DNA from: Mediterranea massiliensis
GTDB taxonomy: Bacteria > Bacteroidota > Bacteroidia > Bacteroidales > Bacteroidaceae
Reading direction: 5' to 3'
Assembly (NCBI GenBank): GCA_015060695.1
Contig: SUYA01000009.1
Coordinates: 31,893-95,892, forward strand
Length of the DNA stretch: 64,000 nt
Under the pieces are notes generated by a model. It searched no databases. It saw only the letters and a program-made list of their open reading frames with translations, and had not been told where the DNA came from. Made by a program: the position numbers and the translations under genes. Position 1 is the first letter of the stretch. Every line of letters begins with the position of its first letter. Of this stretch, positions 4,242-52,511 are shown in pieces.

Positions 4242-5249
4242 ATGAACGATAAAATAGATTTTGTGATTATATGGGTAGATAACAACGACCCTTTATGGCA
4301 ACAAGAATATAATAAATATGCCAATAAAAGTGCCTCTACAGATGATAAAAGTACAGCACGTTATCGCGATTGGGACAACTTACGATATTGGTTCCGAGGA
4401 GTAGAAAAGTTTGCACCATGGGTTAATAAAATACATTTTGTGACTTGTGGACACTATCCTAAGTGGCTGAACCTTAAAGCTCCCAAACTTAATTTCGTAA
4501 AACACGAAGATTATATTCCTCATGAATACCTACCCGTTTTTAGCGCTAATCCCATTGAAATCCATTTGCACCGGATACCAGAGTTAGCAGAAAAATTTGT
4601 CTTTTTCAATGACGATCTTTTCCTTATAAATAATGTTTCTCCTGAACGTTTTTTCAAAAATGGGCTACCTTGTGACATGGCGGCATGCACAGTAGCAGGG
4701 ACACTCGATTTCACAATGTCCCATATTGCAACTAATAATATGTATTGCATAGAGAGTACATTTGATAAAAAAAAGGTCATTCTTAAACATTGGAATAAAT
4801 GGTTTCATTGGAAGTACGATATGGGAAGGTTATTAAAGACATTTTGCTTGTTACCATTCTCCCATTTTGCAACGATATTCGACCCTCATTTATCCAATGC
4901 ATTTTTAAAAGAAACATTTTATTCTGTATGGAGTCAATATGAAGAAAGCCTTGTAAGAACTTCACAATCTCGGTTCCGTTCTATTGCAGACAACAATCAA
5001 TATCTATTTAGGTATTGGCAATTGCTTACAGGAAATTTTGAACCTACAAATGTAACAAAAGACGGAAAGTATTATTCCATATCAGAAGAATCCATAGAAG
5101 AAATTGAAAGAGTTATTACATCTCAAAACTGCAATCTTTTGGTATTAAATGACAGCAATGAAATCAAATCTTTTGAAACAATTAAAAATAGAATAAATAA
5201 TGCTTTTGAAACAATTCTTCCTAATAAATCCGACTTTGAACTATTCTAA
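4242..5249 (+). CDS. Stealth-family polysaccharide phosphotransferase
   Basis: A 335-residue member of the Stealth family (hexose-1-phosphate transferases making phosphodiester-linked capsules, related to GlcNAc-1-phosphotransferase). Conserved region 1 is IDFVIIWVDNNDPLW at the N-terminus. Region 2 runs from ARYRDWDNLRYWFRGVEKF through IHFVTCGHYPKWL to FVFFNDDLFLI, holding the acidic catalytic residues. The C-terminal half has the region 3/4-like FDPHLSNAFLKETF and SRFRS. No signal peptide or membrane segment is seen. It is the only plus-strand gene among the polysaccharide genes and is AT-rich, consistent with acquisition as a single cassette. The linked sugar is unknown. Confidence 0.88.
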   Translation: MNDKIDFVIIWVDNNDPLWQQEYNKYANKSASTDDKSTARYRDWDNLRYWFRGVEKFAPWVNKIHFVTCGHYPKWLNLKAPKLNFVKHEDYIPHEYLPVFSANPIEIHLHRIPELAEKFVFFNDDLFLINNVSPERFFKNGLPCDMAACTVAGTLDFTMSHIATNNMYCIESTFDKKKVILKHWNKWFHWKYDMGRLLKTFCLLPFSHFATIFDPHLSNAFLKETFYSVWSQYEESLVRTSQSRFRSIADNNQYLFRYWQLLTGNFEPTNVTKDGKYYSISEESIEEIERVITSQNCNLLVLNDSNEIKSFETIKNRINNAFETILPNKSDFELF

Positions 5250-12104: not shown

Positions 12105-12305
12105 TTCGCCGCTTCTCCGCACCTCGTTCGCTTTTGGGTCGCTTCTCGTTCGGAACTGCTTCGGTATTTGTTCGGTGTTTCTTCGGTGTTTCTTCGGTCG
12201 TTGTTCGGTCCTATAGAGAGCGAAGGATGACCGAAGAAACACCGAAGAACGACCGAACAGCGCGCGTACGCGTAGCGAGGATGGTACGACCCGAAAGCGA
12301 AGAAA
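12105..12305. repeat. Long palindromic repeat of 11-bp units around CTATAG (copy 1)
   Basis: A GC-rich inverted repeat in the aroQ-xerD spacer. The left arm is a run of 11-bp units such as TTCGGTATTTG, TTCGGTGTTTC, TTCGGTGTTTC, TTCGGTCGTTG; the right arm has the complementary CCGAAGAAACA, CCGAAGAACGA units. The centre is GGTCCTATAGAGAGCG (12207-12222). Outer arms CGCTTTTGGGTCGC (12129-12142) and GACCCGAAAGCG also pair. A homologous copy in the opposite orientation is at 45275-45465, sharing the 16-bp centre and a 22-bp right-arm segment exactly. The short ORFs drawn across it on both strands are by-products of the repeat. Confidence 0.8.
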
Positions 12306-28494: not shown

Positions 28495-28540
28495 AAGCCC
28501 AAGCAACGAGGATAGGCTTGCTGACAAAAAGTAACCGAAA

Positions 28541-28580
28541 GGGCGGTTTTGCCGAACAAAAACGGAAAAATCGCCCTTTT
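28541..28580 (+). terminator. Terminator after the 28093 gene
   Basis: Stem GGGCGGTTTTGCCG / CGGAAAAATCGCCC with a TTTT tail, 47 bp after the stop codon. A second hairpin (AGGCTCG / CCGAGCCT) follows at about 28606-28634. Confidence 0.6.
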
Positions 28581-28649
28581 CTGCTAACCGACACATCTGT
28601 AAAAAGGCTCGAAAAAAATCGAAATTCCGAGCCTTCCCGTTCGAAATAT

Positions 28650-28822
28650 GCGCTCCTACCGAGCAAACTGCGCACCTTTACCGAACAAACTCCGCACGTC
28701 AACCGTGTTTGTTGCGTACATTCCCGGCAGAAACAGTGCACCTTTCCGGCGGAAACATACTATCTTTTGCCCGAAAAGATACTAACTTCTGCCTCAAAAG
28801 TTGGTATCTTCCTCCGAAAAGG
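28650..28822. repeat. Degenerate 22-bp tandem repeat (about eight units)
   Basis: Units can be lined up by eye: gcgcacctttaccgaaca, ccgcacgtcaaccgtgtt, gcgtacattcccggcaga, gtgcacctttccggcgga, tactatcttttgcccgaa and tactaacttctgcctcaa all recur every 22 bp (unit starts near 28670, 28692, 28714, 28736, 28758, 28780, 28802), with a 20-bp first unit at 28650. The rough pattern is nnGCACCTTTnCCGnnnAAACn. Since 22 is not a multiple of 3, the ORF at 28518-28892 is unlikely to be a gene. Confidence 0.65.
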
Positions 28823-29151
28823 GGTGAAATCAACGAATATTTACACAGTTTTGCGTGTTAAAGAAGTGTTAAATCTCAACTTAGTTGCTTGATAGCAAAC
28901 AAGATAACTCATTTTTCGCTTTAAAATTTTCCACCGACCCCTACCTTGCTCCGAAATAAGCGATTCTCAGGCGGTTCGATTATCATTTTGTCAGCAGCTT
29001 ACACTTTGTCAAAAAAGGGCAATTGCTTTACTTCCCCGCTGTCTTGACACCTTTATAAGATTTTATAATCATTTTTTTCAACGTAATATATATTTTTTTA
29101 CCTTTGCCATACCATATGAATGAATACATAAAGACAAATAAACATAAAATT
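28823..29151. other. Non-coding spacer before the beta-propeller gene
   Basis: AT-rich with no ORF I trust. TATTTTTTTACCTTTG ends at about 29106, containing TACCTTTG (29099-29106), a good -7 element about 46 bp before the ATG at 29152. Confidence 0.5.
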
Positions 29152-45274: not shown

Positions 45275-45465
45275 ACTTCGCTTCCGGTTCGCTTCTTGGT
45301 CGCTCCTCGCACGCTACGTGTACGCACGCTGTTCGGTCGTTCTTCGGTCGTTGTTCGGTGTTTGTTCGCTCTCTATAGGACCGAAGAACGACCGAAGAAA
45401 CACCGAACAAACACCGAAGCGAGAGCGAACCAGAAGCGAGCCAAGTACGGCCGAGAAGCGAAGCG
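45275..45465. repeat. Long palindromic repeat of 11-bp units around CTATAG (copy 2)
   Basis: Homologous to 12105-12305 but inverted. Left arm units TTCGGTCGTTC, TTCGGTCGTTG, TTCGGTGTTTG; centre CGCTCTCTATAGGACC (45367-45382), the exact reverse complement of the centre of copy 1; right arm units CCGAAGAACGA, CCGAAGAAACA, CCGAACAAACA, CCGAAGCGAGA. 45327-45348 is the exact reverse complement of 12241-12262. It lies between the frd terminator and the FISUMP gene. Short ORFs on both strands here (such as 45212-45550) are not genes. Confidence 0.8.
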
Positions 45466-52017: not shown

Positions 52018-52153
52018 TCTAAATTAGAAATTAAGAATTAAAATTAAGACAACGGGAAAGAGGATGAGTATAGATTTCAGAAAAGGATATGTTTTTAGCA
52101 TTTTTTTCCGTGGTTGCAAGCTACTCAAATCTTTCCACCTTTGTTTTGCGCTG

Positions 52154-52394: not shown

Positions 52395-52471
52395 TACCTT
52401 TGCATCGTGTTTTTCATAGTATTAGATTTAAGGTTAACAAAAGGTTGGAGTACGGCGGTACTCCTTTTTTT
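52395..52471 (+). ncRNA. Candidate small RNA with its own promoter and terminator
   Basis: TACCTTTG (52395-52402) is a good -7 element. About 6 nt later begins a stretch ending in the perfect terminator hairpin GGAGTAC-GGCG-GTACTCC (52447-52464) with seven T residues. The body TTTCATAGTATTAGATTTAA followed by GGTTAAC matches, as far as I remember, a sequence seen repeatedly between genes in Bacteroidales. The next plus-strand gene is 1 kb away, and the adjacent 52512 gene points the other way, so the ~60-nt transcript would be free-standing. The family name is not known to me. Confidence 0.55.
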
Positions 52472-52511
52472 ATTTCCTCGCTTCTAATTTATCTTAATTT
52501 TTTATCAATTA

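Follow-up and report, generated by a model that had tools for sequence, protein, structure and literature searches.

Within a 64,000-nucleotide stretch of the Mediterranea massiliensis genome (contig SUYA01000009.1; hereafter the window), a degenerate 22-bp tandem repeat at positions 28650–28822 forms part of a short, non-coding, intergenic element that is dispersed in multiple copies, and in the core of which helical phase rather than sequence appears to have been selected. What is retained among copies is the helical register of the core with both ends of the element, and this pattern suggests that selection in the core has acted on the shape of the DNA and not on its letters.

An earlier note on this DNA, which took the segment alone and missed the larger dispersed element around it, described seven tandem units of exactly 22 bp. 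The repeat itself is real: self-identity within 28650–28822 is 60% at lag 22, falling to 47% at lag 44, the lag-22 background across the whole window is 26% on average (sd 5%), and in the autocorrelation against shuffled controls that the note had called for, the 22-bp peak stood far higher, at a level that none of 5000 dinucleotide-preserving shuffles attained at any of the lags 5 to 60. TRF reports the segment as two separate halves, each of period 22. The 22-bp spacing is thus correct and the unit number is not, as the register spans about nine rows, from 28638 to 28835. The note also held that the period itself matters, which is borne out: the period is helical, the A/T phase is fixed to the ends of the element, and lengths differ by whole turns. 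The proposed comparison with relatives points the same way, in that indels do not freely break the phase: copies differ in length by entire turns of the helix, and those of 68 unrelated clusters share an A/T phase locked to the ends. In-phase A/T tracts with predicted curvature are a demonstrated feature of the array family, and the note's reading of the segment as a phased protein-binding array is possible.

Searching the same genome with a 281-bp query around the array, and aligning the resulting copies in one orientation, gave eight full-length copies, the other seven matching the window copy at 85–92% identity. In pairwise comparison over about 410 aligned positions, the copies are 86–91% identical, and the sole indel is one base in one copy. 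The features of the window copy are the following:

28522..29011, + strand: whole dispersed element, about 490 bp, delimited by the 85–92% identical copies, with similarity ending on both sides
28522..28534, + strand: left outer motif TGACAAAAAGTAA, from the copy alignment; weakly conserved, boundary approximate
28538..28579, + strand: copy-specific hairpin AAAGGGCG..CGCCCTTT, its loop containing CAAAAA and T's coming after it, read from the sequence; strong hairpins in some copies only
28557..28618, + strand: conserved left end, CAAAAnG ... TTTTnGCTnAC ... TTTTnnnAAAA, from the left-end profile of 31 species
28634..28850, + strand: helically phased A/T-tract core of about 20 turns, predicted to be intrinsically curved (A/T periodicity, wedge model)
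28638..28835, + strand: 22-bp register of nine rows (28638 + 22n), including the segment 28650–28822, from self-identity analysis and row layout
28853..28998, + strand: conserved right end, the basis of the sequence model R1
28946..28993, + strand: best-conserved right-end motif TTGCTCCGAAATAAGCGATTCTCAGGCGGTTCGATTATCATTTTGTCA, from the right-end model and end profiles
28999..29011, + strand: right outer motif TTACACTTTGTCA, from the eight-copy alignment

A coding repeat was rejected, since 22 is not divisible by 3 and the elements contain no transposase-sized open frame (longest 447 bp). At the left ends of L001, L005, L039, L137, L156, L270, and L284, the conserved loop motif is enclosed by a near-perfect hairpin that is peculiar to the copy and has T's behind it, and copies without a left hairpin exist even within genomes that have hairpin copies. 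The hairpin was discarded as a general feature, being strong in some copies only and having a mean z no better than that of the core. Elsewhere in the window's genome, a right end that matches well stands alone directly behind a gene (G000:C9 near 6853; L342), without a core or full left end; an autonomous parent was sought at this site and none was found.

Searches beyond this genome depend on the right end, to which BLAST matches of the whole element in other species are mostly confined. Loci for comparison were picked by model R1, which leaves the core outside the model and misses copies lacking a right end. The right end was found in 70 of 160 genomes of a genus that named relatives indicate to be Bacteroides, and was absent or undetected in the other 90, many of the genomes compared being incomplete metagenome bins; in the family, it was found in 33 of 201 genomes and 8 of 30 genera, many of these matches being weak. 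Copy number reaches a maximum of 52 (in G161), presence is patchy, and copies are more similar within species. The comparison set comprises 193 copies, 162 of them with both ends and drawn from 31 species, and these copies are related by descent, a kinship that clustering lessens but does not remove. A scan of named genomes via the neighboring beta-glucosidase added, from 80 loci, a single copy in Bacteroides stercorirosoris (L352), whose spacing (368) and lag-22 identity (0.53) are in line with the rest; scans of phages, plasmids, viral contigs, and a first set of genome contigs gave no matches. All 41 copies with long flanks that we examined, from many species, are intergenic, with element ends close to the 3' ends of genes, at a median of 42 bp, and far from 5' ends, at 188 bp, and they show no preferred orientation relative to the flanking genes. 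In two related genomes with large contigs (G065:C1 and G124:C1), over half of the listed copies lie within about 1.2 Mb, at about 1.2–2.4 Mb.

Across the genus, the letters of the core are replaced while its period is kept. Of 25 genomes, 21 have their top autocorrelation upstream of the right end at a lag of exactly 22 bp, the exceptions being G020, G096 (top lag 44), G097 (21), and G110 (33), and the species means are 0.437 at lag 22 and 0.395 at lag 44, with other lags near 0.25. Among loci from other genera of the family, lag 22 ranks first or second in L114–L118 and does not in L112, L113, and L119. Aligned core identity between species has a median of 0.44, compared with 0.425 for shuffled sequences. 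The unit words differ: ACCGAACAAACT in the window copy, AATCACGCGTGATT in G064 and G099, words like CACTTAAGTGTTTC in G135, G156, and G159, CCCAGGCGGGTAGC in G157, and GTATGTTTTCTGTCATC in G007 and G075; different units can even occur in copies of one genome (G136).

To compare unrelated cores, we grouped them by single linkage at 60% core identity, giving 68 clusters. Across these, A/T content has a period of 10.75 bp, at a power of 1.59 compared with about 0.2, and its phase is common to the clusters, with R = 0.62 relative to the right end and R = 0.69 relative to the left end, on a scale where R = 0.32 is equivalent to p = 0.001; in flanks outside the element, R is 0.06–0.22 at the same periods. 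The averaged A/T peaks lie 9–12 bp apart from -318 to -94, over about 21 intervals. A-minus-T skew, by contrast, is periodic at 22 bp, with a phase that bears no fixed relation to the right end (R = 0.05, compared with 0.37 for the left end), meaning that A-tracts and T-tracts alternate every turn in an order that is free. Because common descent would have kept both properties, a kept A/T phase combined with a free A-versus-T parity distinguishes selection on phase from residual homology. The core DNA should also be curved: under a dinucleotide wedge model, with parameters after the published table, the predicted net bend of the cores has a median of 131 degrees, compared with 51 for shuffled cores and 53–58 for flanks, and the window copy is predicted to bend by 213 degrees at 10.9 bp per turn. 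Functional non-coding DNA is mostly recognized through conserved letters; with core letters near random between species and the helical phase strongly kept, ordinary sequence comparison would miss this core.

Length, too, is quantized in helical turns. The left-end motif TTTTnGCTnAC lies 330–414 bp ahead of the right-end motif, and within-species differences in this length are mostly 0–3, 9–13, 19–23, or 31–33 bp and are scarce at 4–8, 14–18, and 24–30 bp; the same steps appear when the left end is located by a simple text pattern. With one representative for each of the 68 clusters, the Rayleigh R comes to 0.51 at 10.5 bp, a value reached by none of 5000 smoothed nulls, and 0.26 at 22 bp. Such one-turn steps are not expected from slippage, since the 22-bp unit lacks 11-bp self-similarity. 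Exact gains or losses of 22 bp do occur between similar copies (L242/L244 and L174/L176). The element amounts to a helical-twist experiment performed by nature across a bacterial genus, and it allows a direct test of whether an element can be selected for the shape of its DNA alone.

These observations could be accounted for by a pre-bent hinge. Alternating A- and T-tracts, one per helical turn over about 20 turns and all on one face of the helix, would give a curved core; that core, either naked or wrapped by protein, would fold the element and bring both conserved ends together on a common face of the helix. The ends would then be joined in one nucleoprotein complex, and copies of out-of-phase length would not be retained. 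Most likely, though this is a weak step of the scheme, the complex would be a mobilization or recombination synapse supplied in trans. The pattern points to a Bacteroides complex needing two DNA ends on one face some 30–40 turns apart. Counting against the scheme, helical-phase effects on looping are strongest at lengths below the 440–520 bp of the element. On balance, we lean toward the bent-core reading as a whole, with a mobilization synapse as its tentative context. With more reserve, we entertain a stronger version in which the core is selected for three-dimensional DNA shape alone, such that some 20 turns of phased A/T tracts with free letters and a turn-quantized length would serve a sequence-independent synaptic or nucleosome-like complex with the conserved ends; to our knowledge, no bacterial element of this kind has been known.

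We favor mobilization as the context because copies are more alike within species, because presence is patchy, and because of a syntenic gap that is filled in G169 only, the element being absent there in G065, G124, and G045. This gap is not a clean empty site, as G169 carries about 170 bp of further extra sequence, and for the window copy no empty site could be defined, the relatives of the neighboring gene in other species not lying in the same gene order. Mobilization is also the weakest step of the argument, since the searches turned up neither inverted repeats nor a target duplication, and neither a parent enzyme nor a clean empty site. The left and right ends of a given copy resemble each other no more than ends taken from different copies do, and the consensus ends are asymmetric; no pair of flank offsets shows an excess of direct repeats over shuffled pairs, although with boundaries uncertain by some bases a variable or degenerate duplication could escape this comparison. 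We found no transposase inside or linked to the elements. A Y1 transposase (PF01797) was detected neither in the window's genome (87% complete) nor in most of the element-rich genomes, and as a partner, whether of the IS200/IS605 type or RAYT, it was rejected, occurring in 14 of 70 carriers and 19 of 90 non-carriers with no association.

The element is short, non-coding, multicopy, and intergenic, as MITEs are, but, with no terminal inverted repeats or target duplication found, it is not a MITE by the strict definition. It nevertheless resembles BrickBuilt, a MITE described in Porphyromonas gingivalis (Klein et al. 2015, PMC4596501), which is also a dispersed, intergenic, non-coding Bacteroidales element with a tandem array between two conserved ends. 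BrickBuilt has a conserved 23-bp unit of freely expanding copy number, element lengths of 84–991 bp, and IS5-type terminal inverted repeats, GAGACCTTTGCA (PMC4596501), whereas the present element keeps a 22-bp register with replaced letters and a near-constant, whole-turn length. Membership in BrickBuilt was therefore rejected on unit length (22, not 23), on the conserved unit, and on the IS5-type repeats: the repeat GAGACCTTTGCA / TGCAAAGGTCTC compared with our element ends gives a median of 5 mismatches of 12 at both ends, and 2–3 in the best single copy. A parallel for length is offered by the internal eliminated sequences (IESs) of Paramecium, whose sizes show a periodicity of about 10 bp that the authors ascribe to loop formation in a transpososome-like complex, citing helical-twist work on IS50 (PMC3464196). 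There, too, length is quantized with the helical repeat and explained by two ends being brought together, but IESs are eukaryotic, mostly below 150 bp, and unique-copy, with a Tc1/mariner-like end consensus (PMC3464196), whereas here a repeated element holds 330–414 bp and a phased A/T core between its end motifs. We found no prior description of the element family in the open-access literature; one may exist elsewhere.

The main rival to the hinge is a wrap that serves the host, in which the phased core, lying close to the 3' ends of genes, is wrapped by DNA gyrase or a nucleoid protein, much as gyrase wraps BIME-2 and the Mu strong site in E. coli, and the conserved ends bind other parts of the complex. 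E. coli gyrase sites, the strong gyrase site of Mu, which helps to align the prophage ends, and BIME-2, itself intergenic, likewise carry a long, degenerate, helically phased A/T–G/C pattern (PMC6379681), and the 10.7 bp per turn with which the phased G/C of the E. coli motif was modeled is close to the 10.75 bp seen here. The proximity of our elements to gene 3' ends fits such a wrap, but would be equally expected if promoter insertions were selected against. The known gyrase motif spans 130 bp, with two periodic arms of 47 bp about an aperiodic 36-bp center, whereas the element runs through about 20 unbroken turns without such a center; BIME-2, for its part, is made of REP palindromes, and neither shows end-to-end length quantization. 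Wrapping alone would leave two conserved ends at a quantized distance unexplained, and it fits poorly with the patchy presence of the element across the 160 genomes. We regard this alternative as unlikely.

Further down in plausibility, and in our view improbable, is an operator-like array bound by one protein dimer every two turns, with the DNA-binding protein coevolving with the sequence of the units. Units are indeed partly palindromic in several species (AATCACGCGTGATT, AAAAGTTTAAAACTT), and G/C letters repeat at lag 22 as well (0.67); dyad scores exceed those of shuffles slightly (0.64 versus 0.60), but those of the flanks are little lower (0.62). Total replacement of units between species would demand fast coevolution of the protein, and units can differ between copies of a single genome, as in G136. 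A shade less probable again is a transcribed or regulatory element, such as a promoter, terminator, or small RNA between genes, which the strong, terminator-like left hairpins of some copies and the bidirectional promoter activity of BrickBuilt (PMC4596501) might suggest; the right end has 0 consensus pairs over 29 sequences, no Rfam family falls at the locus, there is no orientation preference relative to flanking genes, and the phase-locked A/T tracts would go unexplained. A neutral minisatellite, its period persisting solely through whole-unit changes such as the 22-bp gains and losses above, is very improbable, given length classes one turn apart in an array lacking 11-bp self-similarity, a quantization stronger at 10.5 than at 22 bp, and sequence-unrelated cores that share A/T phase and not A-versus-T parity.

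Several other features of this genome deserve mention. The window contains two long palindromes of 11-bp units (ACCGAAGAAAC, ACCGAACAAAC) with a short center, at 12148–12257 and 45278–45419, whose words resemble the element core of this genome, and partial core matches occur elsewhere in the genome. The earlier note took the array period to be twice this 11-bp unit, which the data do not support: self-identity at lag 11 in 28650–28822 is 0.26 (p = 0.44), no higher than background, and the element, having conserved ends of its own, forms a separate family. Its observation of palindrome-like words in the array is right for ACCGAACAAAC, common to the palindromes of this genome, but does not extend to most other species, where core words are unrelated. 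A short palindrome, ACCGAACAAACTCCGTACACGAACCGAGTTTGTTCGGT, that nearly matches core units lies without element ends at G000:C24 near 152596 (L343, about 4580–4650). Finally, the window carries a SAM-II riboswitch at 52085–52144 (- strand) and a Bacteroidetes FopS small RNA at 52407–52474 (+ strand), both above the Rfam cut-off.
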